A DNA stretch of 64,000 bases from Chamaelirium japonicum (Eukaryota > Streptophyta > Magnoliopsida > Liliales > Melanthiaceae): NCBI GenBank assembly GCA_947650365.1, contig OX393551.1, positions 3,233,501 through 3,297,500 on the forward strand, read 5' to 3'. The notes below the pieces were generated by a model. That model worked only from the letters and a program-made list of their open reading frames with translations, had not been told where the DNA came from and made no database searches. Shown here in pieces: positions 12,867 through 63,130 of the stretch; position 1 is the stretch's first letter; each line of letters starts with the position of its first letter. The translations under genes were made by a program, and so were the position numbers.

Positions 12867-12910
12867 TGTGCATGCAAATTTTGGCAGAATTCCACTTACC
12901 GCGGGAGCCA

Positions 12911-14935: not shown

Positions 14936-15121
14936 GTTTGGCACCGTCTGTGGGAAATCGACCGATCGGTTAACTTTGACCGATCAGTCAGAAATTGACC
15001 GATCAGTCCTTCAGTATCGATACTCAATGAACTTCTTTGCTCTCATGACAGGGGGTTGTTAGTTTTGCACCAAGAATCCAAGCCAGCCAGGATGATTTCT
15101 AGCTAACTTGGAGGGGGTAAC
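14936..15121 (+). mobile_element. Mini-element interior 2
   Basis: 186 bases, almost identical to interior 1. Primer-binding site at 14939-14956 and polypurine tract ending at 15121. Confidence 0.85.
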
Positions 15122-34999: not shown

Positions 35000-35731
35000 T
35001 GTGGGGGAAAATCTTCGTGCCGACCCGAAGACCTCACCTCACCAGTCAATTGAAGTTGAAGATTGTTGTTTGATCTATCGATGGAAGTTGGGACTCTCAA
35101 TATGCAAGCAGAGAAAATTTGACACGAGAGATGTGATCTCGGAGTTCAGCCGAAGCCTATGTCTCCGTGCTATAGAGAGCAACCCGAATTCATTAACACT
35201 TTGATCAAAGTGACCTCGACAGGCCGAGTGTCACTGAGGTCTCTCTAATCTCTTCGAGGATAAGAAGAAGATCAAGAAGAATTGGAGATTGAGAGGGTTG
35301 GAACTTCCAGAGCTCTGATTTCTGAAAACAGATATCAGATGATGATGGCACTGGATTTTCTCTCTGGATTTCAAATCGGATCCCAGAATGGAAATCAGAA
35401 TTTTCGGATCCATTTACATTCGAAGGCTCTGCTATTTATAGAATTTCTGGGGAGGAACTCCTGGGTAAATGGCGGTTTCTGCTGTCGTATCTGGGGATTT
35501 TCCAGGTAAAGCTGGTGGACCCCGCTGTAGTCTTTGTGGGCCCACCAGGCAGGGCCGGTGGGTCCCACTGTAGTCTTCGTGGGCCCACCAGGCAGGGCCG
35601 GTGGGTCCCGCTGTAGTCTTCAGGGGCCCACCAGGCAGGGCCGGTGGGTCCCGCTGTAGTCTTCGGGGGCCCACCAGGCAGGGCGGTGGGTCCCGCTTTT
35701 TGCAGACTTCTTGCCAAAATTTGCACCCACA
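35000..35731 (-). mobile_element. Tat LTR A (outermost left)
   Basis: 732 bases. Minus strand starts TGTGGGTGCAAATTTTGG and ends ATTTTCCCCCACA. It has about four units of the 43-bp minisatellite (35516-35700) and a TATA box CTATAAATAG on the minus strand (35432-35441). A polypurine tract lies at 35732-35748, so it is a 3' LTR. Confidence 0.9.
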
Positions 35732-35748: not shown

Positions 35749-35854
35749 AGCTAAGAGGCCTCCTTGGCTGGCTTGGACTCGTGGTGCAAAGCTAACGACC
35801 CCCTGTCATACATGCAGAGGAGCTTTGTCGAGTGTTAGCGTTTTGAAGGACTGA

Positions 35855-37600
35855 TCGGTCAATTTTGACTGATCGGTCAAAGTTGACCGATCGATCAAAA
35901 TTGACCGATCGGTCAAATTTCATCGATCGGTCGATTTCAACCGGTCAAGGATAGGGTGATCGGTCAAAAAACATAGTTTTTTGACCGATCCAGTAGAAAA
36001 TCGACCGATCGGTTGATTTTGACCGATCGGTCATATTTGACCGATCGGTTAAAATCAACCGATCAAGGTTCGAGTGATCGGGCAAAAAACCAAGTTTTTT
36101 GCCCGATCCAGTAGAAAATCGACCAATCGGATGATTTTGACCGATCGGTCATGTTTGACCGATCGGCTAAAATCAGCCAGTCAAGGTTCGAATGATCGGG
36201 CAAAAAACCAAGTTTTTTGCCCGATCCAGTAAAAAATCGACCGATCGGTTTATTTTGACCGATCGGTCATGTTTGACTAATCGGCTAAAATCAGCCGGTC
36301 AAGGTTCGAGTGATCGGGCAAAAAACCAAGTTTTTTGCCCGATCTAGTAGAAAATCGATCGATCGGTTGATTTTGACCGATCGGTCATGTTTGACCGATC
36401 AGCTAAAATCAGCCGGTCAAGGTTCGAGTGATCGGGCAAAAAACCAAGGTTTTTGCCCGATCCAGTAGAAAATCGACCGATCGGTTGATTTTGACCGATC
36501 GGTCATGTTTGACCGATCGGCTAAAATCAGTCGGTCAAGGTTCGAGTGATCGGGCAAAAAACCAAGTTTTTTGCTCGATCCAGTAAAAAATCGACCGATC
36601 GGTTGATTTTGACCGATCGGTCATGTTTGACCGATCGGCTAAAATCAGCCAGTCAAGGTTCGAGTGATCGGGCAAAAAACCAAGTTTTTTTGCCCGATCT
36701 AGTAAAAAATCGACCGATCGGTTGATTTTGACCGATCGGTCATGTTTGACCGATCGGCTAAAATCAGCCAGTCAAGGTTCGAGTGATCGGGCAAAAAACC
36801 AAGTTTTTTTGCCCGATCTAGTAGAAAATCGATCGATCGGTTGATTTGACCGATCGGTCATGTTTGACCGATCGGCTAAAATCAGCCGGTCAAGGTTCGA
36901 GTGATCGGGCAAAAAACCAAGTTTTTTGCCCGATCCAGTAGAAAATCGACCGATAGGTTGATTTTAACCGATCGGTCATGTTTGACCAATCGGTTAAAAT
37001 CAGCCGGTCAAGGTTCGAGTGATCGCGCAAAAAAACCAAGTTTTTTGCCCGATCCAGTATAAAATTGACCGATTGGTTGATTTTAACCGATCTGTCATGT
37101 TTGACCGATCGGCTAAAATCAGCCGGTCAAGGTTCGAGTGATTGCGCAAAAAACCAAGTTTTTTGCCCGATCCAGTAGAAAATAGACCGATCGGTTGATT
37201 TTAACCGATCGGTCATGTTTGACCGATCGGCTAAAATCAGGCGGTCAAGGTTCGAGTGATCGGGAAAAAAGTCAGTTTTTCGCCTGATCCAGTATAAAAT
37301 TGACAGTTCAGTTAATTTTTTCCGATCGGTCATTTTTGATCGATCGGTTAAATTCAGCCGGTCAAAGATTAAGTAATCGGGCAAAAAACTACGTTTTCCG
37401 CCTGATCCAGTAGAAAATCGACTGATCAGTTAATTTTGACCGATCGGTCATATTTGACCGATCGGTTAAAATCAACCGGTCAAGGATTGAGTGATCGGGC
37501 AAAAAACTACGTTTTTCGCCTGATCCAGTAGAAAATCGTCCGATCGGATGAATTTGACCGATCGGTCAATTTTGACCGATCGGTTAAATTCAGCTGATCA
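35855..37600 (-). repeat. 118-bp hairpin tandem array 1
   Basis: About 14-15 units of 118 bases. Each has several GACCGATCGGTC palindromes and one hairpin with 15-base arms, GATCGGGCAAAAAAC / GTTTTTTGCCCGATC, around a CAA loop (for example 36076-36108). The first unit (35958-35990) has GGTC/GACC in place of GGGC/GCCC with an ATA loop, still perfectly paired. Since 118 is not a multiple of three, the Thr-Asp-Arg-Ser-rich ORFs here are artefacts. Confidence 0.92.
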
Positions 37601-38052
37601 GGTTAAAGTTTCGAACCTGCCCTTTCGAGGAAGTAGTATGGCTTGTTCTTCTTCTTTGATCTTCGGCAGAGTTTTTGAACATTGACGGAGTTTGATTCTT
37701 TCTGCTTTGAATCTTCGGTTTGCCTGAATGAGGTTTTGAACCGGCGGTCCGGTTCACTCGGACCGGTGGTTCGTTTGGACCGGTGGCTCACTTGGACCGG
37801 TGGTCTGACGCTTCGCCTGGTCCCAACTGTTCGCCTGGTTTTGCGCTTGCTACGGATAGATGCCACGTGTACCTACAAAAACACGTGATTTGATATGGTG
37901 ATGACACGTGTCATCTCGATTTGTGCGCCTAATTCTCTCAGGATACTTAAGCTTCTATGGCTGTCATTTTCACCTCACGCTTTCAAAATTTTTCGAAGTC
38001 CAGACTCTTTTGCTCCGGATTCTTTGTTCTCTGCTCTCGCTCGATCGGTCAA
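37601..38052 (+). promoter_or_regulatory. Promoter region of antisense gene, unit 1
   Basis: It holds a short tandem repeat of TTGGACCGGTGG type (about 37738-37805) and three CACGTG G-boxes within about 50 bases (37864, 37882, 37905). The last lies in the 16-base palindrome GATGACACGTGTCATC (37900-37915). G-boxes are bound by plant bZIP and bHLH factors and often mediate light or abscisic-acid response. No TATA box is obvious. This copy best preserves the G-boxes. Confidence 0.55.
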
Positions 38053-38889
38053 ATGGCCTCCTCCGGAAACTCGAAGAAGATGATCGTGGTCCCCTCGAAG
38101 AGGAAGGGGAAGGAGATTACTGAAGAATCATCTCCCCCCAAGGGTCGTGGTAAGGGCAAGGCAGTGTTGGTGGAGTTGGGCCAACTGGGCAAAAGGCATC
38201 AAGGAGTAGGGTTTGCTTCAGCGCCATCGAGGCCGGAGCATATCCCGAAGGCAAAATTTGTCATGGGCCCCTTGCTGCCTCTGGCTGAAGAGCCAGCCTA
38301 CATCTACAACACAGGTGGCGAGCTTACTGACAAGAAGAGGGCGAAGTGGCAAGGGCTGTTGGCATGCTTCTCCGAATGGAAGATCCGGCCTTCGCTGTCT
38401 GGGATTCAAGCTGGCTTTGGCATCGACAAGCAGACTGTGTTTGTGAACGTCGCCAGCAATGAACAGGTGATGGGGACCGTGGTCTTCGTGGGTCAGCTGA
38501 ACTGCGGACTTCGCCTTCCGCTACTGTCGTTTGCCGCGAGGTTGCTAAACACCTCCGGCCTTTGCCCAGGACAGATCACCGGCAATGCCTGGAGGATAAT
38601 CTACGTCTTCTGCCGCGTAGAGTCCAATTTTCAGAAGGAGCTGAGGGAGTGCTACTCTAGCATTCCAGATGACGAAGAGGCTCGGATTGAATTAGGTTAC
38701 TTCTTCTTCCACTACCGATGGGCTTCGACAAAAGATAGCCCTTTCTTCAACCTCACAGGGGTTTCCACTCTACGCCCCCTCACCGACACAGTTGCCTCCG
38801 ACAAGCTGTATACGGAGTGGCCGCTCACAGTGGCTGGTGCTTGGACGCCACTTTCAGTGCCAAAGACTCCTCGCGTTGAGGTTAACAAG
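38053..38889 (+). pseudogene. Antisense extra gene, 5' part, fused to LTR B
   Basis: The frame starts at ATG 38053 (MASSGNSKKM) with a basic, lysine-rich N-terminus (KRKGKE, RGKGKA), suggestive of a nuclear signal. The folded domain follows (GLRLPLLSFAARLLN, ITGNAWRI). The frame is intact up to about residue 279, where EVNKE runs into LTR B through the shared bases GAGAT, so the C-terminal half, both introns and all of gag-pol are missing. The ATG of this copy is intact, unlike unit 3. Confidence 0.8.
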
Positions 38890-39476
38890 GAGATGTGGTC
38901 TCGGAGTTCAGCCGAAGCCTATGTCTCCGTGCTATAGGGAGCAACCCGAATTCATTAACACTTTGATCAAAGTGACATCGACAGGCCGAGTGTCACTGAG
39001 GTCTCTCTAATCTCTTCGAGGATAAGAAGAAGATCAAGAAGAATTGGAGATTGAGAGTGTTGGAACTTCCAGAGCTCTGATTTCTGAAATCAGATATCAG
39101 ATGATGATGGCACTGGATTTTCTCTCTGGATTTCAAATCGGATCCCAGAATGGAAATCAGAATTTTTGGATCCATTTACATTCGAAGGCTCTGCTATTTA
39201 TATAATTTCTGGGGAGGAACTCCTGGGTGCCGTATCTGAGGATTTTCCAAGTAAAGCTGGTGGACCCCGCTGTAGTCTTCGTGGGCCCACCAGGCAGGGC
39301 CGGTGGGTCCCGCTGTAGTCTTCGTGGGCCCACCAGGCAGGGCCGGTGGGTCTCGCTGTAGTCTTCGGGGGCCCACCAGGCAGGGCCGGTGGGTCCCGCT
39401 GTAGTCTTCGGGGGCCCACCAGGTAGGGCGGTGGGTCCCGCTTTTTGCAGACTTCTTGCCAAAATTTGCACCCACA
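38890..39476 (-). mobile_element. Tat LTR B (truncated)
   Basis: 587 bases; the U5-side part is missing because of the deletion that joined it to the antisense gene. Minisatellite about 39259-39450. Its TATA position reads ATATAAATAG on the minus strand (39194-39203). Polypurine tract follows at 39477-39493. Confidence 0.88.
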
Positions 39477-39589
39477 GTTACCCCCTCCAAGTTAGCTAAG
39501 AGGCCTCATTGGCTGGCTTGGACTCGTGGTGCAAAGCTAATGACCCCCTGTCACACATGCAGAGGAGCTTTGTCGAGTGTTAGCGTTTT

Positions 39590-41245
39590 GAAAGACCGAT
39601 CGGTCAAATTTGACCGATCGGTCGATTTCAACCGGTCAAGGATGGGGTGATCGGTCAAAAAACATAGTTTTTTGACCGATCCAGTAGAAAATCGACCGAT
39701 CGGTTGATTTTGACCGATCGGTCATATTTGACCGATCGGTTAAAATCAACCGGTCAAGGTTCGAGTGATCGGGCAAAAAACCAAGTTTTTTGCTCGATCC
39801 AGTAGAAAATCGACCGATCGGTTGATTTTGACCGATCGGTCATGTTTGACCGATCGGCTAAAATCAGCCGGTCAAGGTTCGAGTGATCGGGCAAAAAACC
39901 AAGTTTTTTGCCCGATCCAGTAAAACATCGACCGATCGGTTGATTTTGACCGATCGGTCATGTTTGACCGATCGGCTAAAATCAGCCGGTCAAGGTTCGA
40001 GTGATCGAGCAAAAAACCAAGTTTTTTGCCCGATCTAGTAGAAAATCGATCGATCGGTTGATTTTGACCGATCGCCTAAAATCAGCCGGTCAAGGTTCGA
40101 GTGATCGGGCAAAAAACCAAGTTTTTTGCCCGATCCAGTAGAAAATCGACCGATCGGTTGATTTTGACCGATCGGTCATGTTTGACCGATCGGCTAAAAT
40201 CAGCCGGTCAAGGTTCGAGTGATCGGGCAAAAAACCAAGTTTTTTGCTCGATCCAGTAAAAAATCGACCGATCGGTCATGTTTGACCGATCGGCTAAAAT
40301 TAGCCGGTCAAGGTTCGAGTTATCGGGCAAAAAACCAAGTTTTTTTGCCCGATCTAGTAAAAAATCGACCGATCGGTTGATTTTGACTGATCGGTCATGT
40401 TTGACCGATCGACTAAAATCAGCCGGTCAAGGTTCGAGTGATCGGGCAAAAAACCAAGTTTTTTTGCCCGATCTAGTAGAAAATTGATCGATCGGTTGAT
40501 TTTGACCGATCGATCATGTTTGACCGATCGGCTAAAATCAGCCGGTCAAGGTTCGAGTGATCGAGCAAAAAACCAAGTTTTTTGCCCGATCCAGTAGAAA
40601 ATCGACCGATCGGTTGATTTTAACCGATCGGTCATGTTTGACCGATCGGCTAAAATCAGCCGGTCAAGGTTCAAGTGATCGCGCAAAAAACTAAGTTTTT
40701 TGCCCGATCCAGTATAAAATTGACCGATTGGTTGATTTTAACCGATCGGTCATGTTTGATCGATCGGCTAAAATCAGCCGGTCAAGGTTCAAGTAATCGC
40801 GCAAAAAACTAAGTTTTTTGCCCGATCCAGTAGAAAATAGACCGATCGGTTGATTTTAACCAATCGGTCATGTTTGACCGATCGGCTAAAATCAGCCGGT
40901 CAAGGTTCGAGTGATCGGGAAAAAAGTCAGTTTTTCGCCAGATCCAGTATAAAATTGACAGTTCAGTTAATTTTGTCCGATCGGTCATTTTTGATCGATC
41001 GGTTAAAATCAGCCGGTCAAAGATTGAGTGATCGGGCAAAAAACTACATTTTCTGCCTGTCCAGTAGAAAATCGACAGATCAGTTAATTTTGACCGATCA
41101 GTCATGTTTGACAGATCGGTTAAAATCAGCCGGTCAAGGATTGAGTGATCGGGCAAAAAACTACGTTTTTCGCCTGATCCAGTAGAAAATCGTCCGATCG
41201 GATGAATTTGACCGATCGGTCAATTTTGACCGATCGGTTAAATTC
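39590..41245 (-). repeat. 118-bp hairpin tandem array 2
   Basis: Same units as array 1, about 14 copies, with individual units lost or shortened (for example 40040-40085 and 40262-40300). Hairpin arms are mostly intact on the GTTTTTTGCCCGATC side, with variants toward the distal end. Confidence 0.9.
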
Positions 41246-41706
41246 AGCCGATCAGGTTAAAGTTTTGAACATGCCCTTTCGAGGAAGTAGTATGGCTTGT
41301 TCTTATTCTTTGATCTTCGGCAGAGTTTTTGAGCATTGATGGAGTTTGATTCTTTCTGCTTTGAATCTTCGGTTTGCCTGAATGAGGTTTTGAACCGGCG
41401 GTCCGGTTCACTCGGACCGGTGGTTCGTTTGGACCGGTGGCTCACTTGGACCGGTGGTCTGACGCTTCGCCTGGTCCCGACTGTTCGCCTGGTTTTGCGC
41501 TTACTACGGATAGATGCCACATGTACCTACAAAAACACGCGATTTGATATGGTGATGACACATGTCATCTTGATTTGTGCGCCTAATTCCCTCAGGATAC
41601 TTAAGCTTCTCTGGCTGTCATTTTTGCCTCACGCTTTTAAAATTTTTCGAAGTCCAGACTCTTTTGCTCCAGATTCCTTGTTCTCTGCTCTCGCTCGATC
41701 GGTCAA
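41246..41706 (+). promoter_or_regulatory. Promoter region of antisense gene, unit 2
   Basis: Colinear with 37601-38052, but all three CACGTG motifs are changed (CACATG, CACGCG, CACATG). Two changes are G-to-A at a CpG, as expected from deamination of methylated DNA. Confidence 0.5.
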
Positions 41707-43710
41707 ATGGCCTCCTCCGGAAACTCGAAGAAGATGATCGCGGTCCCCTCGAAGAGGAAGGGGAAGGAGATTGCTGAAGAATCATCTCCCCCCAAGGGTC
41801 GTGGCAAGGGCAAGGCAGTGTTGGTGGAGTTGGGCCAACTGGGCAAAAGACATCAAGGAGTAGGGTTTGCTTCAGCACCATCGAGGCTGGAGCACATCCC
41901 GAAGGCAAAATTTGTCATGGGCCCCTTGCTGCCTCTGGCTGAAGAGCCAGCCTACATCTACAACACAGGTGGCGAGCTTACTGACAAGAAGTGGGCGAAG
42001 TGGCAAGGGCTGTTGGCATGCTTCTCCGAAGGGAAGATCCGGCCTTCGCTGTCTGGGATTCAAGCTGGCTTTGGCATCGACAAGCAGACTGTGTTTGTGA
42101 ACGTCGCCAGCAATGAACAGGTGATGGGGACCGTGGTCTCCGTGGGTCAGCTGAACTGCGGACTTCGCCTTCCGCTACTGCCGTTTGCCGCGAGGTTGCT
42201 AAACACCTCCGGCCTTTGCCCAGGACAGATCACCGGCAACGCCTGGAGGATAATCTACGCCTTCTGCCGCGTAGAGTCCGATTTTCAGAAGGAGCTGAGG
42301 GAGTGCTACTCCAGTATTCCAGATGACGAAGAGGCCCGGATTGAATTAGGTTACTTCTTCTTCCACTACCGATGGGCTTCGAGGAAAGATAGCCCTTTCT
42401 TCAACCTCACTGGGGTTTCCGCTCTACGCCCCCTCACCAACACAGCTGCCTCCGACAAGCTGTATACGGAGTGGCCGCTCTCAGTGGCTGGTGCTTGGAT
42501 GCCACTTTCAGTGCCAGAGACTCCTCGTGTTGAGGTTAACAAGGAGATCAAAATGTACTACGCAGGAGGAGAGTTGGTGTGGCCTTCGGAGAGGGTTGGA
42601 GCCATTGATAACCTGTTCCTCGAGTTGACCTGCGGCACCAGGTCATGGAAGCAATTTTCAAACTGCCCAGTAAGATATGGAAAAGCCAATCTCCTTCACC
42701 GATCGTAGGCCAGATATGAAGACAATGAGGTCTTGTACTCAGACTATAAGGAGGATCCTCAGTCTGGCAAGATCATCAGAAAGATTAGAACTGAGAAGAA
42801 TGCCTATGGTGCAAGGCGTCGGTTGCCCACCTCTGAGGAGAAGCTGGTGATTCAGAGGGGCCTAGCGAAGAAGAAAAGGAAAATCCTTGTCAAGCAGAAT
42901 GAAGAAAAGGATCAAGAAAAGAAGGATGAAGATGAAGAAGAGGAGGAAGAAGAAAAGAGGAACGAAGACGAGGAAGAAGAAGAAGAAACAGCAAACGGTA
43001 GCAACGGCAACGGTGGTGACGATAAAGAAGAGGAAGATGGGGGTGGTGAGGATGATCTTCCTCCCACCCCCACTGGTGGAGATGATGGAGCGGGGGTGGT
43101 GAGGAAGAAATTCCTCCCACCCCCACTAGTGATGAACAAGGACAGGGGGGTGGTGGGGATGAACTTCCTCCCACCCCCACTGGTGGTGCCGAAGAGGAGG
43201 ATTCTCTTCCTATCCCTATCGACGAGGCTAAGGCCCGTCGAATGGAGGGAGTCATAGACGTGGAGGGCGAAGGCCACAAGGTCGTTCCCGCCTACCACTT
43301 CGACGATTTGAAGAAGCGCCCGGTGCGTTTCAAGATAAAATTCTCAGGGAGTGGTGGGGTTGGAAGCAACCCCACGCCCCTTGATCAAATCCCTCCTGAA
43401 GTTCCTCGTCTCGAAGGAGCGACTACGAGTGGGGGTTTGGAGGTTGAGCAACCTCCACCCCCCTCGCACTCTCTGGCTGAGGAGGTAGCTGCTATCGTGG
43501 TGGGGCTTGCTCAGCCAAGCGGGCCACAAGAAGAAGGGGGAGTCTCACCTCCTAAGGGTGCTCCCTCTCCTTACTTGGAGAGGGAGAGCCGTGTGGGTGA
43601 TGGGGCTCCTCAACCCCAACCAGAGCCAACTCCCACCAAGGAGAAGTCGACCCCTCGGGGTAAGAGCTCCGATCGTGGGAAGAGAAAGGCTCCTCGAGTC
43701 GATGTCTCAG

Positions 43711-43794
43711 GTATCTGTAGTAACTTGCCTTGATTATCTTGCCTTTGAAGTTTGAAAATATTCTAACTCTTTTGAACTTCTGTTTGATTTGCAG
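43711..43794 (+). other. Intron 1 of antisense gene (unit 2)
   Basis: 84 bases, TCAG|GTATCT ... GATTTGCAG|GG, phase 1, with CTAAC about 28 bases before the acceptor. The unit 3 copy is 56216-56299, same length and phase. Confidence 0.82.
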
Positions 43795-43931
43795 GGACTC
43801 CTGCAGGCATGGCTTCAATTTTGAAAGATTTGGGTGAGGTTGACATCAACCACCCAACTCCCGTGATCCGGAAGCTCTGCAACCTTCCGGGGGCCCCGAT
43901 CGAGGAAGCCTTTCATAGGCTTGAAGTGGTG

Positions 43932-44002
43932 GTAAGTGCACCAGCTTGAATTGTCTTTCGCATTGAATCTTTCGATATACTTCACTTTTTGTTTGTTCGC
44001 AG
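43932..44002 (+). other. Intron 2 of antisense gene (unit 2)
   Basis: 71 bases, GTGGTG|GTAAGTGC ... GTTCGCAG|AACTC, phase 0, with a T-rich 3' end. The unit 3 copy is 56437-56507. Confidence 0.82.
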
Positions 44003-44551
44003 AACTCAGCGGTTCTAAAATTCGGCACGAAGCTCTTTAGGAAGTACGGAGAGCGAGAGGCTTCTTCTGAAGTTTCTCGCCTAACGACTGAATTGGAAGC
44101 TGCCCACGAGGAAAAGGATAAGCTGAGGGAGCTTCTATCCTCCAAGAAGGAGGCCTTGAAGGCTAAGATTGAAGCCCTTCGTAAGGAGAAATTGGAGAGC
44201 CAGGGGTGGAAAAATGGTTATGAAGCTCGGGGTAACGAGCTTGAAGAATTGAAGAATCGATTCTTCAGGATCGAGAACTTGGGCTTCAATCGTGTGGCTC
44301 GAATAAAGGAGCTGGAGACTCAACTTGCTGCGAAGGATGCCGCTTTAGCAGCTAAGGAGGAAAACCTCAAGAAGGAGTTGGAGCATGCACTAACCGAGTG
44401 CAAGAGCTACAGGGAAACAGCTGAGAAGGCGGCAGAAGCACTCAGGGTCCACGCTGCCAGCGTTCGATCTTCTAAGGCTTCAGTGGGGAGCAAAGCTCGT
44501 GGTGGATCCGAAGGAGAGAAGTCGTGCGCGCCAAGTGTGGCTAAACCCTGA

Positions 44552-45174
44552 TGTACTTCTACCTTTTTCTTTGCTGTACTTTGTAAACTTGTGATATGAA
44601 AAGGCTCAATCTTGTACTTGGCAATTTTTGGATAATAGAAATCTTTTTGGTGTTTGAAAGTTGGATGTCTCTTGAGTTGAATGTCTTCGAATATCATGTT
44701 CTGGATAGCATTGGAATAGATACAATCTTTTGAATGTAAGGGGTCGAGTCGCAACTCGATTACCCAAACTTGTAACTTTGAAAATTGAATTTGAATTCGT
44801 GTAACACTCATATGTGAGGGGCTTAGTCGCAACTCAAGCACCCAAACCTGTTAGACGATATCGAAATTGATTAAAATTGAATATTGAAATTGAAGGTCAG
44901 TTTAACATTTGTAAGTAAGGGGTAGTGTCGCAACACAAACTCCCCAACTTGTTAAACCGACTAGTGACTTGAAGGTTGCGTTGAATGACAACCTGAAATA
45001 GTTTTAACATTTGCCAGTAAAGGGTTGAGTCGCAACTCTAACACCCAAACTTGTTAAAAGACCTGGTAACTTGAATATGGATAATTTGAAGCTGCTTCAG
45101 AACTTGAATTGAAAAGCTGAACACTTGCACATTTGAACATTTGAAAGAGAACTTTATTCATCATGGAATTTACA
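44552..45174. terminator. Convergent intergenic region with four palindromic repeats
   Basis: Between the stop of the plus-strand gene and the stop of integrase. Four degenerate units (about 44735-45060) carry AGGGG, then a palindrome such as CGAGTCGCAACTCG, then ACCCAAACTTGT. The layout suits 3' ends of two convergent transcripts, but no processing signal can be proved. The same block occurs at 57057-57679. Confidence 0.5.
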
Positions 45175-46884
45175 TCATGGATAGAACAGTTTGAGGTGTC
45201 TAGCATTCCAAGCTCGTGGCAATCTATCTTCTTCTGGTGAGATCAATCGATAAGAGCCTTTGCCTCCTACTGATTCGACAATATATGGACCTTCCCAGTT
45301 GGGAGCAAGCTTCCCACTGCTGTGTTCCTTCGTGTTGTAGAAGACTGCTCTAAGGACCAGACTGCCAATAGGGAATTGCCATTTGTAGACTTTCTTATCA
45401 TAGGCTCGTTTGATCTTCTGTTGATACTTGGCCACACGAAGGGAGGCTTGGTCTCGTAGTTCTTCAGAGAAGTCCAGATCATTGACTCGAAGCTCTTCAT
45501 TGATCCCTTCTTCAACTGCCCTGGTCTTGAGAGTATTTGATATTTTTTCTATGGGGAGTACTGCTTCTGATCCATATGTCAGACGAAAGGGTGAGAACCC
45601 TGTTGACCTTCTCGGGGTTGTACGATACCCCCAAAGAACTTCAGGTAGGACTTGTTCCCATAATCCTTTCTTGTCGTTGAGCTTCTTCTTGAGTATACCA
45701 AGAATAGCTCTATTGGAGGCTTCAGCTTGACCATTACATTGAGGGTATCTTGGAGTTGAATAAAAGAGTTTGATCCCGTTGTTCAGACAGAACTCAAAGA
45801 ACTTGTCAGAGTCAAATTGAGCTCCATTGTCAGCAACAAGAACTTGAGGTGTACCAAACCTTGAGAAGATGTTATGTCGAATAAACTTGATCACTTCATC
45901 ATCGGTCTCCCTGAAGAGTGGCACAGCTTCAACCCATTTGGTGAAGTAATCTGTGGCCAGCAGTAGATATTTCTTCTTGCTTGGAGTTGGTGGGAAAGGA
46001 CCCAAGAAGTCCAACCCCCACTGATGGAAAGGCCATGGACTTGATAGTTGGTGAACCTCATCTGCAGGGAGATGGATAGCTCGAGCGTATCGTTGGCATG
46101 GCTCGCATCTTTGAACAACTTGTCGAGCATCTTTTGCCATTGTAGGCCAGTAGTAAGCTTGTAGCTTCGTCTTGGCTTCAAGAGATCTTCCTCCCGAATG
46201 ATTCCCACAAGCTCCAGAGTGGATATCAATCAGGATTGCCTGTGCTTGCTCGGGACCAAGGCACTTGAGCAACATCCCGTTGTGAGATTTGAAATATAGA
46301 TCTTCTCCTTGAATAGTATAGAAAGGAAGTTTCCTTTGAAGTCTTCGGGCTTGATTGGGATCTTCTGGTACTTTGCCATATTTGAAGAAGTCAAAAATTA
46401 ACTGTCTCCAATCTTCAAATTCATTTGCAGTAGTAAGGTTCAACATTAATTGATCTCCACCCCCAGATCTCTTTGTAGTAGAAAGGATCTTTTGATCGGG
46501 GATGGTCTTGGGCACTTCTTGATAATCGATCTGTATTTGCCTTCCTCCGAGTGAGTCTCCAAGAAATGAGGCAGCATTGGCTAAGGCATCTGCTTCTCGG
46601 TTCTCTGCTCTTGGGATTTGAGTGAATTCAGTATTAGTAAAACGTTGTTGAAGACGTCGTACTAAGGCCAAATAGAGTTGCATTTTTTCTTCTCGAGCTG
46701 TATATTCTCCATTGATTTGCCTTATGATCAGCTGGGAATCGCTGTAGACGATGATTCGATCTACCCCCAGGGATTCAGCCATTTCGAGTCCGGAGATGAG
46801 TGCTTCGTATTCGGCTTCGTTGTTGGTGGCATTGAATCCGAGGAGAGTGGCCTTTTGGAGATGATCAAGTTCAGGGGATACCAA
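45175..46884 (-). CDS. pol: Archaeal-type RNase H (part) and integrase, unit 2
   Basis: An intact 569-codon stretch. The archaeal-type RNase H shows NNEAEYEAL (E25), VYSDSQL (D49) and EADALAN (D99); its first Asp block (YTDGAS) lies just upstream, beyond a nonsense codon. Integrase has the zinc site H222, H229, C260, C263 and the catalytic triad D292 (LDFLGPF), D352 (ADNGAQF) and E388 (GQAEASNR), with 35 residues between the last two as expected. No chromodomain follows; it ends HLKLFYP. This is the best preserved coding part of the array. The stated start is only the first ATG after a stop; in the parent polyprotein it is internal. Confidence 0.9.
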   Translation of the reverse strand: MVSPELDHLQKATLLGFNATNNEAEYEALISGLEMAESLGVDRIIVYSDSQLIIRQINGEYTAREEKMQLYLALVRRLQQRFTNTEFTQIPRAENREADALANAASFLGDSLGGRQIQIDYQEVPKTIPDQKILSTTKRSGGGDQLMLNLTTANEFEDWRQLIFDFFKYGKVPEDPNQARRLQRKLPFYTIQGEDLYFKSHNGMLLKCLGPEQAQAILIDIHSGACGNHSGGRSLEAKTKLQAYYWPTMAKDARQVVQRCEPCQRYARAIHLPADEVHQLSSPWPFHQWGLDFLGPFPPTPSKKKYLLLATDYFTKWVEAVPLFRETDDEVIKFIRHNIFSRFGTPQVLVADNGAQFDSDKFFEFCLNNGIKLFYSTPRYPQCNGQAEASNRAILGILKKKLNDKKGLWEQVLPEVLWGYRTTPRRSTGFSPFRLTYGSEAVLPIEKISNTLKTRAVEEGINEELRVNDLDFSEELRDQASLRVAKYQQKIKRAYDKKVYKWQFPIGSLVLRAVFYNTKEHSSGKLAPNWEGPYIVESVGGKGSYRLISPEEDRLPRAWNARHLKLFYP

Positions 46885-47250
46885 GACTATCCCAGTTCCC
46901 GAACCGATCGCACTTGAAGCTCCATCAGTGTAAAGCTTCTATGGAGGAGTTGCAGCAATAGCCTCGAGACTTGGATCAATTTTTGTTGCAAGATTGATTG
47001 GAGGATTATCCTCATCTTCTAAGCGCATGTCGACATCTTCTTCCCAAGTGATGGGGTCTTCAACTGGAAAGTCAGCTAGAAAATCAGCAACAGCTTGACC
47101 TTTGATAGAAGTGCGAGATTCGAACTGAATCCCCAGAGCACTCATTTCGATCACCCATTTGGTCATTCGACCAGCTCGACCAGCTTTGTCAACGATATCT
47201 TTGAGCGGGTGTTCTGAAATGACAGTGATCTGGTGTGAGACGAAGTAAGG
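46885..47250 (-). pseudogene. pol: RNase H to archaeal RNase H linker, unit 2
   Basis: In frame with RT and integrase but cut by two nonsense codons: one where unit 3 has Gln (47248-47250) and one where unit 3 has Trp (TGG to TAG near 46938). It carries the end of the gypsy-type RNase H, the tether GIQFESRTSIKGQAVADFLA and the start of the archaeal-type RNase H (KLYTDGASS). Confidence 0.82.
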
Positions 47251-48585
47251 TTAGAGACGACACGATACAGTGAGCAAGACCAGGATGACCTTCTCAGTTT
47301 TTGAGTAGCGAGTTTCAGCCGGAAGAAGAGCGTGGCTGATATAATAGACTGGATGCTCGATGCCTTCTCTTCTACTAACTAGGACCGCACTGATTGATTG
47401 ATTGGTCATAGCGAGATATAGCCACAAGTCTTCTTTTGGAAGTGGAGCAGTCAGGATAGGAGCTTGCACCAGATATTTCTTGATGCCTTGAAAAGCTTCT
47501 TCACAAACAGGACTCCATCCCGATGTATCTGCCTTTCGCAGCTTGTCGAAAAGAGACTTACACTTGTCGGAGGACTTTGAGATGAACCGATTGAGGGCAG
47601 CAAGTCTTCCAGTGAGACGTTGCACTTCCTTCCGATTGGTAGGCGATGGCATGTCGAGGATAGCTCGAATTTGGTCGGGGTTAGCCTCAATACCTCTTCT
47701 GGTCACAAGGTGACCCAGAAATTTGCCCGATTGAACTCCAAAAGCGCACTTAGCAGGATTGAGCTTCATGCGATACTTTCGGAGGACTTGAAAGGTTTCT
47801 GCCAGATCGGATAGATGTTTTCCTCGAGTGGAACTCTTGGTGAGGAGATCATCGACGTAGACTTCGACGTTGTGACCGATCTGATCTTCGAACATCTTTG
47901 TGACTAACCTTTGATAGGTGGATCCAGCATTTTTGAGGCCGAATGGCATTACATTGTAGCAGTAGAGACCTCGGCTAGTCACAAAACATATCTTCTCTTG
48001 ATCATCCGGATGAAGCGAAATTTGATTGTATCCAGAGTACCCATCCATGAAAGATAATAGCTCGTGGCCAGCAGTGGCATCGATGAGTCTATCAATCCTT
48101 GGCATGGAAAATGGGTCTTTGGGGCAAGCCTTATTGAGATTGGTAAAGTCGATGCAGACTCTGACCTTCCCATTCTTCTTTGGAACAGCAACTATGTTGG
48201 AGATCCAAGTAGGATACTCTACTTCACGAATGAAGCCTGTTGTGAGTATCTTACTGATCTCCTCTTGAACAGCAACTTGTAGCTCTGGTCGGATGGTGCG
48301 TGGCTTTTGCTTGATAGGCTTCACTTCTTCTTTGATCGCAAGTCGGTGACAAGCGTCATCTGGATTGATTCCAGGCATGTCTTCGAAACCCCAAGCGAAG
48401 ACGTCGATATTGGACTGGAGGAAGGATACCATGTCTCGCGCTTCTGCGTCGCTAAGACTGGTACCAATAAACATTTGTCGAGGGAGATCTCGGCCGCCGA
48501 TGTTGATTAGGATGATCTCTTCAATTGAAGGTGAGGCTTCCCATTCGATTGGTGGGGGTTCGGTCAGCGGAATCTCCTTTGATTG
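47251..48585 (-). pseudogene. pol: Reverse transcriptase and RNase H, unit 2
   Basis: Continuous from just after the UAG at 48586-48588 to a nonsense codon at 47251. Numbered from the first Met (48474), RT landmarks are VCIDFTNLNKACPKD, the catalytic Asp 144 in SFMDGYSGYNQ, MPFGLKNAGSTYQR, the YVDD box at 206-209 and KCAFGV...FLGHLV. The gypsy-type RNase H follows but lacks the usual strong Asp blocks, as is common when an archaeal-type RNase H has been added. All RT catalytic residues look intact. Confidence 0.9.
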
Positions 48586-48588
48586 CTA
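48586..48588 (-). promoter_or_regulatory. Stop codon in readthrough-type context (UAG CAA UCA)
   Basis: TAG followed by CAATCA, fitting the plant-virus readthrough context UAG-CAR-YYA. It lies between protease and RT in one continuous frame and is also present at 61090-61092 in unit 3. It may set the Gag-Pro to Pol ratio. Confidence 0.5.
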
Positions 48589-49401
48589 TTTGGAAGAGGG
48601 ACCAGCTTCATCTCGTGGCCGCTTTGGAGGAGCAATATTGATCTTTCGATCTATTTTAGCCGCAGCAGCCTCGCAAGACCTCCCAGCTTGCTGATCGCCT
48701 CGAATGCAGACGATTCCTTCTCCCGTTGCAAACTTGAGAAGTTGGTGATAAGAAGAGGAGATGGCATTGATCTGGTGGAGGAATGGTCGCCCGAGAATGG
48801 CGTTGTAGCTAGACACTCCTTCGACTATTGCGAATCTCACCGAGACTCGAGTCTCTCGGCTAAGATCGAGTGTGAATCTCGATTCTCCCACCATGATGCT
48901 TTGTTCGCCGTTGAAGCCAGTGATCACGGTCGGGACGACGTCAAGGCTTGAGTATCTATGTCCCAGACGCTTGAAGCAATCCGAGAACATAATGTCGATG
49001 GAGCTCCAGGTGTCGATGAGGATCCGGTTGACGGTGCTTCCGTCGATGAGGAGCTTCAAGACCAGAGGGTCTCGGTGGGGAGTATGAACTCCTTGAAGGT
49101 CGGAGTCGTTGAAAACAATGGATGGCCAAGCCAAACCTTCGATAGGCTTCTCGATCCAGGTATCCTCCTTGTTCGCAGCAGAACGAACGTGGAAGATGCG
49201 TCGTACTTGTCGATCCACTTCCTTCCCGGTCAACGTTTGATTGTGCAATGTTCCATGAATACCAAAGACATTGGCATTCACAGAGATAGGTTGCCGGTTG
49301 GAGGAGACTTGATGGACCCAACACACCTCTTTCCCCTTTGCAGAGGCTCGACGTTGATCTTGTCCGCCTTTGACGAACTCTTGAAGATGGCCTTCTCGCA
49401 A
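48589..49401 (-). pseudogene. pro: Retropepsin-like protease, unit 2
   Basis: A 271-codon open stretch downstream of the Gag zinc site. The active-site region reads ILIDTWSSIDIMF where Asp-Thr/Ser-Gly is required, so Gly is replaced by Trp. The flap and C-terminal signature YNAILGRPFLH is normal, followed by FATGEGIVCIRGDQ. The protein would cleave the Gag-Pol precursor, but the change to DTW should inactivate it. Confidence 0.85.
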
Positions 49402-51054
49402 TAAGTCTTCAAGATGGAATTTCAGCCGATAGTACCGGTCGGTGGAGTGGCCGTGACTTCGATGGAATTCGCAGTAGATCGTTTTGTCCGCTGTGAATTT
49501 GGAGTTTGGCTGAAGAGGATTGGGCCTTCGAAGGAATTCCTCGTGTTAAATGCGGTCGAGTATCTGCTCGGTTGGTAAATTCCACTCGGTGAAAGTGGTC
49601 TTCGTTGGAGATTGGCGTCCATCATTCTTTGATCGCTTGTTGGTTGGAGGAGCTACTGCTTCCGCATTATGGGCTTTGGCAGCGTACTTGGGAGCTTCTC
49701 TTTCCGCCGGTCTTCGCTTCGTTTCTCGCCCTTTGCGAGCGACTTGATCATCTTCAACCTCAATCTCTCTCTGGATTCGATCGAACATAGCACCCAGAGA
49801 AGGAGGGGGATTGCGGATGAAGTCGTTGTATATGTGTAGATCGAAGCGGAGGGCGTTCTAGAAATCCAACATGATGGTTTCATCATCCAGATGTCTTCCA
49901 GAGAGAGCAGCATGCTCATTGCGAAATCTCCTTGTGAAATTACAGAGAGTCTCGTCAGCACCCATCCTTAGCCGATAGAGGGAGTCGAGCTTCTTCTCTG
50001 GCTTCAGATTGAGGTAATAGTGCTGCACAAAGAGGTTTGCCAAAACACCGAACTAGGTGATGGACCCAGCTCGGAGATTGTGATACCAGTCGAGTGACGG
50101 CTCATCGAGACTTCCGGCAAAAGTGCGACAAAGTACGTTGTTTTCTTCTTAGTGTGGTGTCAGGGCTTGCTTGAAGGCAAGTATATGGAGAGTTGGATCT
50201 CCTCTGATGCAATTGAATTTGAGGAGAGTGGGAGTTCTCCATCCCCTTGGAAATGTTGATTCGAATAGACTCCATTGGAGAGGCCCGGCAGAGGAGTACC
50301 CATCTCTACGATCATGCCCCCGAGCTGAATGTAGATCGAGAGGTAGAATCGAGAGGTCTTGTTCAGGTCTCTCAATATCAGCAGGTTGGAGTCGGTGGCG
50401 AAGGTCCGATCCGAGTCCGCGTTGGAGTGGAATGGAAGGGGAGACTCTACTCTAGGAAGGAGCGCCTTTCATCTGGTGTCTCCTTGGTATATCGGGCTTT
50501 GAAGGAGCCTTCCTATCGCAGTTGCGACCAGAAGATGATTGGGAGGACTCGTCGTCGAGGCAGTCCCAAACACTCTGCTTCCAGGGGGCAGCAAAGGGAG
50601 TTGGGTCTCGTTGAATCCTCTCGAGGGTAGCAGTGCCCATTGACCTCCGTTGCTCGGAGTGGATTGAATATCGAGGAAGATTGACCCTCTCACTTGTAGA
50701 GGGGATTGGAAGAGCGATCCCAGCCTCGGAAGCTACTTTCTTAAGAGCATCCCTCTCAGCGGTGAGGGTGGCGTTTTGCTTCGCCAATTGGAGCAGTTGG
50801 AAGTCGACCGCAGAGATTTGGTAGGTCGATGGAGGGTCTTCAGCAGGAGCGGGAGCAGTTTGCCCAATTGACTGTCGTGCGGGATGGGCAATCGGTCGAT
50901 CGACAGATCTCCCACTCCCTGAGCGAACCCCCATCTCAGGAACAGCAAGGGGCTGTCCGAAGTTGAGCCTTTGACTCATTGATCGAGTCTCAGGACGAGC
51001 TTGCTGTTGAGTGTTACTTCCTTCTGGTTGACCCTGGTGCTTAGTTTTCGCCAT
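49402..51054 (-). pseudogene. gag: Gag, unit 2
   Basis: It starts at ATG 51054 (MAKTKHQGQ). Like the whole gag-pol of this unit it stays in one frame and is broken only by nonsense codons: near 50452, about 50152, 50053-50055, 49858-49860 and 49543-49545. The capsid part contains DWYHNLRAGSIT and ADETL.NFTRRF. The zinc site reads CEFHRSHGHSTDRY, the final Cys being changed to Tyr (49432-49434), whereas unit 3 keeps Cys. The stop at 50053-50055 is shared with unit 3. Confidence 0.82.
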
Positions 51055-51188: not shown

Positions 51189-51963
51189 TGTGGGGGAAAA
51201 TCTTCGTGCCGACCCGAAGACCTCACCTCACCAGTCAATTGAAGTTGAAGATTGTTGTTTGATCTGTCGATGGAAGTTGGGACTCTCAATATGCAAGCAG
51301 AGAAAATTGGACACGAGAGATGTGATCTCGGAGTTCAGCCGAAGCCTACGTCTCCGTGCTATAGGGAGCACCCCGAATTCATTAACACTTTGATCAAAGT
51401 GACCTCGACAGGCCGAGTGTCACTGAGGTCTCTCTAAACTCTTCGAGGATAAGAAGAAGATCAAGAAGAATTGGAGATTGAGAGGGTTGGAACTTCCAGA
51501 GCTCTGATTTCTGAAATCAGATATCAGATGATGATGGCACTGGATTTTCTCTCTGGATTTCAAATCGGATCCCAGAATGGAAATCAGAATTTTCGGATCC
51601 ATTTACATTCGAAGGCTCTGATATTTATAGAATTTCTGGGGAGGAACTCCTGGGTAAATGGCGGTTTCTGCTGCCGTATCTGGGGATTTTCCAGGTAAAG
51701 CTGGTGGACCCCGCTGTAGTCTTCGTGGGCCCACCAGGTAGGGCCGGTGGGTCCCGCTGTAGTCTTCGTGGGCCCACCAGGCAGGGCCGGTGGGTCCCGC
51801 TGTAGTCTTCGGGGGCCCACCAGGCAGGGTCGGTGGGTCCCACTGTAGTCTTCGGGGGCCTACCAGGCAGGGCCGGTGGGTCCCGCTGTAGTCTTCGGGG
51901 GCCCACCAGGCAGGGCGGTGGGTCCCGCTTTTTGCAGACTTCTTGCCAAAATTTGCACCCACA
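51189..51963 (-). mobile_element. Tat LTR C (shared by units 2 and 3)
   Basis: 775 bases, TGTGGGTGC...CCCCACA on the minus strand. Longer than LTRs A and D by about one minisatellite unit (minisatellite 51710-51930, five units). TATA position reads CTATAAATAT on the minus strand (51621-51630). A primer site on its left and a polypurine tract (51964-51980) on its right show it is shared. Confidence 0.92.
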
Positions 51964-54212: not shown

Positions 54213-57056
54213 ATAGCCTCCTCCGGAAACTCGAAGAAGATGATCGCGGTCCCCTCGAAGAGGAAGGGGAAGGAGATTGCTGAAGAATCATCTCCCCCCA
54301 AGGGTCGTGGCAAGGGCAAGGCAGTGTTGGTGGAGTTAGGCCAACTGGGCAAAAGGCATCAAGGAGTAGGGTTTGCTTCAGCGCCATCGAGGCCGAGCAC
54401 ATCCCGAAGGCAAAATTTGTCATGGGCCCCTTGCTGCCTCTGGCTGAAGAGCCAGCCTACATCTACAACACAGGTGGCGAGCTTACTGACAAGAAGAGGG
54501 CGAAATGGCAAGGGCTGTTGGCATGCTTCTCCGAAGGGAAGATCCGGCTTTCGCTGTCTGGGATTCAAGCTGGCTTTGGCATCGACAAGCAGACTGTGTT
54601 TGTGAACATCGCCAGCAATGAACAGGTGATGGGGACCGTGGTCTCCGTGGGTCAGCTGAACTGCAGACTTCGCCTTCCGCTACTGCCGTTTGCCGTGAGG
54701 TTGCTAAACACCTCCGGCCTTTACCCAGGACAGATCACCGGCAACTCCTGGAGGATAATCTACGTCTTCTACCGCGTAGAGTCCAATTTTCAGAAGGACC
54801 TGAGGGAGTGCTACTCCAGCATTCCAGATGACGAAGAGGCCCGGATTGAATTAGGTTACTTCTTCTTCCACTACCGATGGGCCTCGAGGAAAGATAGCCC
54901 TTTCTTCAACCTCACAGGGGTTTCCGCTCTATGCCCCCTCACCGACACAGTTGCCTCCGACAAGTTGTATACGGAGTGGCCGCTCTCAGTGGCTGGTGCT
55001 TGGATGCCACTTTCAGTGCCAGAGACTCCTCGCGTTGAGGTTAACAAGGAGATCAAAATGTACTACGCAGGAGGAGAGTTGGCGTGGCCTTCGGAGAGGG
55101 TTGGAGCCATTGATAACCTGTTCCTCGAGTTGACCTGCGGCACCAGGTCATGGAAGCAGTTTTCAAACTGCCCAGTAAGATATGGAAAAGCCAATCTCCT
55201 TCACCGATCGCAGGACAGATATGAAGACAATGAGGTCTTGTACTCAGACTATAAGGAGGATCCTCAGTCTGGCAAGATCATCAGAAAGATTAGAACTGAG
55301 AAGAAGCCTACGGTGCAAGGCGCCGGTTGCCCACCTCTGAGGAGAAGCTGGAGATTCAGAGGGGCCCAGCGAAGAAGAAAAGGAAAATCCTTGTCAAGCA
55401 GAATGAAGAAGAGGATCAAGAAAAGAAGGATGAAGATGAAGAAGAGGACGAAGAAGAAAAGAGGAAGGAAGACGAGGAAGAAGAAGAAGAAACTGCAAAC
55501 GGTAGCAACGGCAACGGTGGTGACGATGAAGAAGATGAAGATGGGGGTGGTGAGGATGATCTTCCTCCCACCCCCACTGGTGGAGATGATAGAAGCGGGG
55601 GTGGTGAGGAAGAAATTCCTCCCACCCCCACTGGTGATGAACAAGGACAGGGGGGTAGTGGGGATGAACTTCCTCCCACCCCCACTGGTGGTGCCGAAGA
55701 GGAGGATTCTCTTCCTATCCCTATCGACGAGGTTAAGGCCCGTCGAATGGAGGGAGTCATGGTCGTGGAGGACGAAGGCCACAAGGTGGTTCCCGCCTAT
55801 CACTTCGACGATTTGAAGAAGCGCCCGGTGCGTTTCAAGATAAAATTCTCAGGGAGTGGTGGGGTTGGAAGCAACCCCACACCCCTTGATCAAATCCCTC
55901 CTGAAGTTCCTCGCCTCGAAGGAGCGACTACGAGTGGGGGTTTGGAGGTTGAGCAACCTCCACCCCCCTCGCACTCTCTGGCTGAGGAGGTAGCTGCTAT
56001 CATGGCGGGGCTTGCTCAGCCAAGCGGGCCACAAGAGGAAGGGGGAGTCTCACCTCCTCAGGGTGCTCCCTCTCCTTACTTGGAGAGGGAGAGCCGTGTG
56101 GGCGATGGGGCTCCTCAACCCCAACCAGAGCCAACTCCCACCAAGGAGAAGTCGACCCCTCGGGGTAAGAGCTCCGATTGTGGGAAGGGAAAGGCTCCTC
56201 GAGTCGATGTCTCAGGTATCTGTAGTAACTTGCCTTGATTATCTTGCCTTTGAAGTTTGAAAATATTCTAACACTTTTGAACTTCTGTTTGATTTGCAGG
56301 GACACCTGCAGGCATGGCTTCAATTTTGAAAGATTTGGGTGAGGTTGACATCAACCACCCAACTCCCGTGATCCGGAAGCTCTGCAACCTTTCGGGGGCC
56401 CCGATCGAGGAAGCCTTTTATAGGCTTGAAGTGGTGGTAAGTGCACCAGCTTGAATTGTCTTTCGCATTGAATCTTTCGATATACTTCACTTTTTGTTTG
56501 TTCGCAGAACTCAGCGGTTCTGAAATTCGGCACGAAGCTCTTCAGGAAGTACGGAGAGCGAGAGGCTTCTTCTGAAGTTTCTCGCCTAATGGCTGAATTG
56601 GAAGCTGCCCATGAGGAAAAGGATAAGCTGAGGGAGCTTCTATCCTCCAAGAAGGAGGCCTTGAAGGCTAAGATTGAAGCCCTTCGTAAGGAGAAATTGG
56701 AGAGCCAGGTGTGGAAAAATGGTTATGAAGCTCCGGGTCACGAGCTTGAAGAATTGAAGAATCGATTCTTCAGGATCGAGAACTTGGGCTTCGATCGTGT
56801 GGCTCGAATAAAGGAGCTGGAGGCTCAACTTGCTGCGAAGGATGCCGCTTCAGCAGCTAAGGAGGAAAACCTCAAGAAGGAGTTGGAGCATGCGCTAACC
56901 GAGTGCAAGAGCTACAGGGAAACAGCTGAGAAGGCGACAGAAGCACTCAGGGTCCACGCTGCCAGCGTCCGATCTTCTAAGGCTTCAGTGGCGAGCAAAG
57001 CTCGTGGTGGATCCAAAGGAGAGAAGTCGCGCGCGCTAAGTGTGGCTAAACCCTGA
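54213..57056 (+). pseudogene. Antisense extra gene, unit 3
   Basis: Same gene as 41707-44551 with introns at 56216-56299 and 56437-56507, both splice sites intact. The initiating ATG is ATA (54213), one base is missing near 54394 and another near 55311, so three frames are needed to read exon 1. The position that is TAG in unit 2 is CAG here, and the LPPTPTGG repeats are in one frame. The two copies carry different private lesions. The coiled-coil exon (56508-57056) is open. Confidence 0.78.
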
Positions 57057-61484: not shown

Positions 61485-63130
61485 TAAGTCTTCAAGATGG
61501 AATTTCAGCCGATAGCACCGGTCGGTGGAGTGGCCGTGACTTCGATGGAATTCGCAGTAGACCGTTTTGTCCGCTGTGAATTTGGAGTTTGGCTGAAGAG
61601 GATTGGGCCTTCGAAGGAATTCCTCGTGTTGAATACGGTCGAGTATCTGCTCGGTTGGTAAATTCTACTCGGTGAAAGTGGTCTTCGTTGGAGATTGGCG
61701 TCCATCATTCTTTGATCGCTTGTTGGTTAGAGGAGCTACTGCTTCGGCATTATGGGCTTTGGCAGCGTACTTGGGAGCTTCTCTTTCCGCCGGTCTTCGC
61801 TTCGTTTCTCGCCCTTTGCGAGCGACTTGATCATCTTCAACCTCAATCTCTCTCTGGATTCGATCGAACATAGCACCCAGAGAAGGAGGGGGATTGCGGA
61901 TGAAGTCGTTGTATATGTGTAGATCGAAGCGGAGGGCGTTCTGGAAAGCCAACATGATGGCTTCATTATCCAGATGTCTTCCAGAGAGAGCAGCATGCTC
62001 GTTGCGAAATCTCCTTGTGAAATTACGGAGAGTCTCGTCAGCACCCATCCTTAGCCGATAGAGGGAGTCGAGCTTCTTCTCTGGCTTCAGATTGAGTTGA
62101 TAGTGCTGCACAAAGAGGTTAGCCAAAACACCGAACTAGGTGATGGACCCAGCTCGGAGATTGTGATACCAGTCGAGTGACGGCTCATCGAGACTTCCGG
62201 CAAAAGTGCGACAAAGTACGTTGTTTTCTTCTTCGTGTGGTGTCAGGGCTTGCTTGAAGGCAAGTATATGGAGAGTTGGATCTCCTCTGATGCAATTGAA
62301 TTTGGGGAGAGTGGGAGTTCTCCATCCCCTTGGAAAGTTGATTCGAATAGACTCCGGTGGAGAGGCCCGGCAGAGGAGTACCCATCTCTACGACCATGCC
62401 CCCGAGCTAGATGTAGATCGAGAGGTAGAATCGAGAGGTCAGGCCTCTGAATATCAGCAGGTTGGAGTCGGTGGTGAAGGTCCGATCCGAGTCCGCGTTG
62501 GAGTGGAATGGAAGGGGAGACTCTACTCTTGAAAGGAGCGCCTTTCATCTGGTGTCTCCTTGGTATATCGGGCTTTGAAGGAGCCTTCCTATCGCAGTTG
62601 CGACCAGAAGATGATTGGGAGGACTCATCGTCGAGGCGGTCCCAAACACTCTGCTTCCAGGGGGCAGCAGAGGGAGTTGGGTCGCGTTGAATCCTCTCGA
62701 GGGCAGCAGTGCCCATTGACCTCCGTTGCTCGGAGTGGATTGAATATCGAGAAAGATTGACCCTCTTACTTGTAGAGGGGATTGGAAGAGCGATCCCAGC
62801 CTCGGAAGTTGCTTTCTTAAGAGCATCCCTCTCAGCGGTGAGGGTGGCGTTTTGCTTCGCCAATTGGAGCAGTTGGAAGTCGACCGCAGAGATTTGGTAG
62901 GTCGATGGAGGGTCTTCAGCAGGAGAAGGAGCAGTTTGCCCAATTGACTGTCGTGCGGGATGGGCAATCGGTCGATCGACAGATCTCCCACTCCCTGAGC
63001 GAACCCCCATCTCAGGAACAGCAAGGTGCTGTCCGAAGTTGAGCCTTTGACTCATTGATCGAGTCTCAGGACGAGCTTGCTGTTGAGTGTTACTTCCTTC
63101 TGGTTGACCCTGGTGCTTAGTTTTCACCAT
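61485..63130 (-). pseudogene. gag: Gag, unit 3
   Basis: Starts at ATG 63130 (MVKTKHQGQ). N-terminal part open to a one-base deletion near 62335, after which the frame changes. The capsid part, ADETLRNFTRRF and GRHLDNEAIMLAFQNALRF, is open from 62126 to a nonsense codon at 61665-61667 (Trp in unit 2). The stop at 62136-62138 (GSIT-stop-FGV) is shared with unit 2. The zinc site CEFHRSHGHSTDRC is intact here. Confidence 0.82.

Follow-up and report, generated by a model that had tools for sequence, protein, structure and literature searches.

The antisense gene lies in a tandem complex of a Ty3/gypsy element

Positions 35000-63996 of the window (the whole 64-kb stretch of DNA analysed here) are occupied by a complex of tandemly arranged units of a single Ty3/gypsy element, which lies on the minus strand. 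The low end of the complex is an LTR at 35000-35731 (-) with TG...CA ends and repeats. A second LTR with repeats, at 51189-51963 (-), is common to units 2 and 3 and is followed on the minus strand by TTTGGCGCCG, which resembles a primer-binding site. The high end is an LTR at 63265-63996 (-). An LTR remnant (38890-39476) abuts the truncated gene copy of unit 1. The base substitution distance K is 0.018-0.021 between LTR pairs and 0.028 between the two gene copies. TTAGT precedes position 35000 and TTAG follows position 63996, where the subsequent bases are masked; this looks like a single target-site duplication around the whole set of two long units and a truncated one.

The pol region of unit 2 (45178-49545, minus strand) consists of several open pieces with interrupted frames. 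Pfam matches place a reverse transcriptase, an RNase H, a second RNase H-like domain, and an integrase there, with RVT_1, RT_RNaseH_2, RVT_3, rve, and Integrase_H2C2 over their cut-offs. The RVT_3 match (8.4e-22) adjoins the RT_RNaseH_2 match and is a candidate for the additional RNase H domain (aRH) of the Tat clade. A protease-like match (Asp_protease_2, 17.9 bits) is under the curated cut-off. No Pfam match, at E 0.1 or at 0.01, is obtained for the presumed gag region (50455-51054 and 62246-63130, minus strand), and Rfam at gathering thresholds gives no match in 34500-64000. Repeats with a spacing of 118 bp are found at about 35779-37613, at about 39470-41267, and from about 52075 onward. 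Between pol of unit 2 and its 3' LTR lies a region of about 5.7 kb (39477-45174), which contains a gene on the other strand, in tail-to-tail orientation to pol.

These features fit the Retand lineage, an assignment based on features and not on an RT tree. They comprise the antisense ORF with a TRP28 domain between pol and the 3' LTR, the tandem (118-bp) repeats, and the pol-3'LTR region, the length of which is inside the published range of 2,933-6,566 bp (PMC11963269). The Transposase_28 (PF04195) match in the unit 2 copy (E=3.6e-5, 24.4 bits) is under the curated cut-off of 26.2 bits; that in the truncated unit 1 copy (38479-38631) is over it, at 29.7 bits, as are those of other loci of the family. 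In a genome search with PF04195, all of the best 150 of 5978 candidates, which were scored, are over the cut-off. The same search of 14 control genomes returns one match, in E. coli, below the cut-off. The earlier note on this DNA had stated that elements of the Tat lineage (Grande and others) may carry extra antisense ORFs. The features refine this to the Retand lineage, in which the antisense Transposase_28 gene is already known.

The antisense gene contains two predicted introns

In unit 2 the antisense gene runs from an ATG at 41707 to a TGA at 44549-44551 on the plus strand (41707-44551), opposite to gag-pol. Its predicted product has an N-terminal Transposase_28 domain, an acidic linker, and a charged C-terminal exon. 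Exon 1 (41707-43710) encodes Transposase_28 at about residues 143-189, as well as the acidic repetitive linker. Intron 1 (43711-43794) is 84 nt long, is in phase 1, has GT...AG ends, and contains a branch-point-like CTAAC motif. Exon 2 (43795-43931) is open over its 137 nt. It is followed by intron 2 (43932-44002), which is 71 nt long, is in phase 0, and has GTAAGT as its donor. Exon 3 (44003-44551) is open for 182 codons plus TGA, and its product is charged and, by eye, coiled-coil-like. Each intron of unit 2 has a stop in the entering frame.

The gene copy of unit 3 (54213-57056, plus strand) has introns of the same lengths, 84 nt (56216-56299) and 71 nt (56437-56507), and in each of the two units exons 2 and 3 read open. 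Exon 1 is interrupted in each of them, in unit 2 by a stop at 42706-42708 and a shift of frame near 43086-43257, and in unit 3 by two frame changes. The earlier note had described GT-AG introns of 84 and 71 bases in units 2 and 3, with in-frame stops inside and open exons on either side. The introns, and in unit 2 their stops, are as described; the openness of the exons holds only beside the introns, because neither unit has an intact exon 1.

The unit 1 copy (38053-38894, plus strand) is a truncated 5' part of exon 1 that ends at the junction with the LTR remnant. The direct joining of gene sequence to the remnant (38890-39476) suggests a deletion between gene and LTR.

Upstream of the ATG, a conserved region (41507-41640, plus strand) contains a TATA-like motif at about 41597-41605, which reads ATACTTAAG in 27 of 40 aligned family copies (see below) and TATATAAG in 3 of 40. 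The mean heterozygosity of this region is 0.092 (134 sites, 40 copies); the values for the same copies are 0.198 and 0.214 in the two intron interiors and 0.183 in the 3' UTR.

Splice ends, reading frame, and indels in forty family copies

The 40 aligned copies are those scored of 5076 candidates in a genome search with exon 1 (1.52 Gb) and therefore lean to close relatives. The window copy (L001) is among them and enters the alignment as 'ref'. Both introns have GT...AG ends in 40 of 40 copies, which are not 40 independent cases because the copies have common ancestry. Intron 1 ranges from 78 to 111 nt and intron 2 from 71 to 78 nt. Exon 2 is 137 nt long, open, and free of indels in all 40 copies. 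Exon 3 stays open up to the shared stop in 29 of the 40; one copy (L015) has just 99 nt aligned in this exon.

When spliced, 21 of the 40 copies have an open C-terminal frame, composed of the last part of exon 1 and exons 2 and 3; when unspliced, none has. For the whole gene, the corresponding numbers are 2 of 40 and 0 of 40. Thirty-eight of the 40 copies, including both window copies, are thus not open from ATG to stop. The earlier note had named relatives with an uninterrupted frame through the intron positions as evidence that would speak against it; sought in the 40 copies, such a frame occurs in none.

Indel segments were counted against the window copy and divided into those that are multiples of three and those that are not. 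The ratios are 48:7 in the C-terminal part of exon 1, 0:0 in exon 2, and 49:2 in exon 3. They are 14:21 in intron 1 and 3:55 in intron 2 (together 17:76), and 16:137 in the 3' UTR. In the N-terminal part of exon 1 the ratio is 9:12, so that frame-breaking indels exceed multiples of three there, which counts against our interpretation.

The introns are rich in T (45% in intron 1 and 43% in intron 2; exons, 18-24%). The donor of intron 2 is GTAAGT in 34 of 40 copies. CTAAC is present in intron 1 of 39 of 40 copies, mostly 27-28 nt from the 3' end. For intron 2, no more than 18 of the 40 copies have a YTRAY site, which counts against our interpretation.

As a background for the splice ends, we counted which GT and AG dinucleotides of the window copy are kept in 40 of 40 copies elsewhere. 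For GT, the fractions are 0/7 inside the introns, 0/12 in the 3' UTR, 2/7 in the 5' flank, and 8/47 in the exons; for AG, they are 1/3, 0/4, 1/6, and 10/109, respectively. Over 43300-44551, the plus strand has 16 and the minus strand 9 GT-AG pairs that are spaced by 60-150 nt and have their two ends kept in every one of the 40 copies. Such pairs are not rare, and kept GT-AG ends alone are therefore weak proof of an intron. Intron 1 itself is absent from the 16 because of one copy (L012) with an ambiguous alignment at the intron 1 donor, the GT of which is present in the copy count and is not kept column-wise in the pair count. The case for the introns rests jointly on the reading frame, the indel pattern, the base composition, and the constraint on the exons.

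Diverged loci and selection on the protein

From the 150 scored TRP28 matches, 30 loci were cut out and 13 were extended downstream, and 11 of the 13 contain exons 2 and 3; the remaining two (L067 and L049), in which exons 2 and 3 gave no match, were left out. All comparisons cover one genome. The amino acid identity of the 11 diverged loci to the window copy is 59-88% over the longest exon 1 piece and 42-91% over exon 3. GT...AG ends are present at both predicted places in 9 of 11. Conservation of the splice sites in related elements, proposed in the earlier note as a check, is thus seen in all 40 family copies and in nine of the 11 diverged loci. The two exceptions are the most diverged loci. 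They are without GT at the intron 1 donor predicted from an ungapped alignment, with an in-phase GT 6-12 nt onward, and keep intervals of similar length; one of them has GC...AG at intron 2. Over all 51 sequences (40 plus 11), intron 1 has GT in 49 and AG in 51, and intron 2 has GT in 50 and AG in 51.

We computed changes per site from a tree that comprises all 51 sequences. For the first, second, and third codon positions, they are 2.3, 2.0, and 5.1 in the C-terminal part of exon 1, 2.2, 1.4, and 3.7 in exon 2, and 2.0, 1.6, and 4.9 in exon 3. The intron interiors have 3.2 and 3.9 changes per site, and the 3' UTR has 5.8. The codon-position pattern indicates that exons 1-3 look protein-coding in the spliced frame. 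At positions +3 to +6 of the donors, donor 2 is somewhat conserved (2.25 changes per site); donor 1, with 5.75 changes per site, is above the interior of its intron, which counts against our interpretation. The dN/dS ratio relative to the window copy is 0.03-0.40 where finite; dS is often >1 and sometimes saturated. The high synonymous divergence implies that the introns are old, and the number of copies implies that they have passed many copy cycles.

Two loci of related families, the only two modelled as spliced, are open for 878 aa as they stand; they were chosen from the 11 for their open-looking exon pieces. Exon 3 matches without an internal stop number 109 of 150 by hand count, a share that is biased upward because the 150 are the best of 5218 candidates. 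In the stretches that reach pol, pol lies opposite to the antisense gene (4 of 40 family copies and 2 of 13 diverged loci).

In L042 with L072, dS relative to the window copy is about 1.8 in the first part of exon 1, and 0.2-0.3 in the later exons. This is probably a mosaic of two families.

Searched with the 878-aa spliced query, a large protein collection contains no homologue at E <= 1e-5 among 7982 scored candidates, and solved structures give zero sequence matches at E <= 1. A single-sequence structure prediction of the N-terminal region has a mean pLDDT of 30.9 and no usable fold.

The best surviving alternative, which we consider improbable, is that the spliced antisense RNA now serves as a regulatory or dsRNA-forming transcript, the protein being of little importance. 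The tail-to-tail position of the gene and pol is in accordance with this, and dsRNA from antisense transcripts is discussed in PMC7264820. However, in each of the three exons the rate of change at codon position 3 is more than double that at position 2, and this pattern, together with the low dN/dS, argues for selection on the protein during the history of the family.

It is still less likely that the locus holds two separate antisense ORFs, one with TRP28 and a charged one downstream, which are unspliced and divided by spacers, the GT...AG ends being coincidental. The frequency of kept GT-AG pairs would permit such a coincidence, and the word 'intron' is absent from the available texts on these antisense ORFs (PMC11963269 and PMC7264820). 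Against it, exon 2 is constrained by codon position and is free of indels in the 40 copies. In addition, the intron phases and the split codon join to give a frame that is open in the C-terminal part of 21 copies, in the whole gene of 2 copies, and in both modelled relatives, and the introns are T-rich and have, in 34 of 40 copies, GTAAGT at donor 2.

Finally, although LTR retrotransposons are known to capture genes (PMC7264820), recent capture of a host gene or pseudogene fragment by one element, as opposed to a stable part of the family, can practically be dismissed, given the presence of this gene with its introns in all 40 aligned copies and in diverged loci, the 5076 candidates of the first genome search, and TRP28 antisense ORFs in 97% of Retand clusters (PMC11963269).

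No intron-less copy is seen

A 387-nt query of joined exons was used in a search for spliced copies, in which 40 of 3061 candidates were scored. None of the 120 pieces from these best 40 candidates crosses a junction. First-exon pieces end at query position 101, and middle pieces start at 98, 99, 106, or 148; middle pieces stop at 237, and third pieces begin at 237 or 238. Two exact junction patterns, which fit the family of the window element and not all of its relatives, have 0 occurrences in 1.52 Gb; 28 of 40 and 16 of 40 known copies, respectively, would match them if spliced. Of the 40 family loci, 17 contain the unspliced donor pattern and none the spliced pattern of junction 2. Therefore, no intron-less copy is seen within these searches, either from the cycle of the element or from retrocopying of the antisense mRNA.

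Proposed mechanism

Retrotransposons are expected to lose introns, since their passage is through RNA. Our interpretation is that a Retand-type Ty3/gypsy element very probably carries an antisense accessory gene with two short spliceosomal introns, which it retains by virtue of the strand on which they lie. The structure of the gene, the kept splice dinucleotides, the constraint on the protein in three exons, and the long persistence of the introns can be read from the genomic sequences themselves.

In the proposed mechanism, Pol II would transcribe the antisense gene from a promoter just 5' of the ATG, probably the conserved upstream region with the TATA-like motif. Splicing of the antisense pre-mRNA would yield an mRNA that encodes a protein of about 880 aa. 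The genomic RNA of the element would be the minus-strand transcript, in which the ends of the introns read CT...AC and would be invisible to the spliceosome. Reverse transcription and integration would then pass the introns on unchanged. Thus, the introns probably survive retrotransposition because the genomic RNA is the complementary strand, in which CT...AC is not cut. The earlier note had proposed just this retention of antisense introns in the genomic RNA and their survival through retrotransposition, and the proposal gains support from the splice ends in 40 of 40 copies and 9 of 11 diverged loci, from the dN/dS of 0.03-0.40 where finite, and from the searches for intron-less copies, in which none was seen.

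As for function, one may guess that the product most likely acts in the nucleus to regulate expression of the element itself, by analogy with Grande gene23 and HTLV-1 HBZ.

Relation to known systems

Antisense TRP28 ORFs have been reported in 97% of Retand clusters (PMC11963269); an earlier survey found Transposase_28 in 23% of Retand elements (PMC6317226). The reported Retand TRP28 ORFs resemble the gene described here in that they belong to Ty3/gypsy elements with a long pol-3'LTR region and tandem repeats, and lie antisense between pol and the 3' LTR with a TRP28 domain. They differ in that the main text of PMC11963269 does not contain the word 'intron'; 'splic' occurs in it twice, the passage displayed being the title of a reference. 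That study catalogues ORFs of at least 600 bp, including antisense ORFs other than TRP28, and some of these might belong to a single gene as its downstream exons. Among the top-ranked titles of a literature search, none could be recognised by title or abstract as describing introns in an antisense gene of Retand, and spliced models of this kind may already exist in plant gene annotations. The antisense Transposase_28 gene of Retand is thus already known, and its introns are apparently new.

Grande gene23 of maize, which has its own promoter and a nuclear product (PMC7264820), is also antisense and in the same position. The available text of that review is without the word 'intron' and calls for a look for antisense and spliced transcripts. 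HTLV-1 HBZ is a spliced and translated antisense retroviral gene (PMC1459196). It follows the same strand logic, a likeness that carries no claim of homology, but it belongs to an animal retrovirus and its transcript starts in the 3' LTR. In Ogre elements an intron separates the two polyprotein ORFs (PMC6317226); they thus also combine a spliceosomal intron with a plant Ty3/gypsy element, but on the sense strand. Lentiviral beta-globin vectors typically carry their cassette antisense, which prevents splicing of the cassette introns (PMC7897704). The principle is the same as in the Retand-type antisense gene, but the cassette is engineered. An antisense gene with introns would thus be the natural counterpart of the reverse-oriented intron cassettes in gene-therapy vectors.

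If such genes are general, Retand antisense genes may be annotated as separate ORFs though each is one spliced gene. The introns would also provide a strand-specific readout of accessory-gene expression, since spliced reads cannot stem from the genomic RNA, and could help to trace where the TRP28 gene came from. We regard it as possible, though on balance doubtful, that intron-bearing antisense genes are both general and ancient in Retand, and that the TRP28 gene entered the ancestor as unspliced DNA. If that were so, the introns would imply that a whole nuclear or transposon gene was inserted backwards, and not a processed mRNA. Shared intron positions could then identify the donor of the TRP28 gene and settle the origin of the accessory gene, and some antisense ORFs now listed separately would be downstream exons of one gene.

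Other repeats in the window

Outside the tandem complex, repeats with a spacing of 43 bp at 12768-15666 are about 81-86% complementary to the LTR repeats at 51660-51916. A Ty1/copia element with gag, integrase, and RT matches lies at 19728-23475 on the plus strand.
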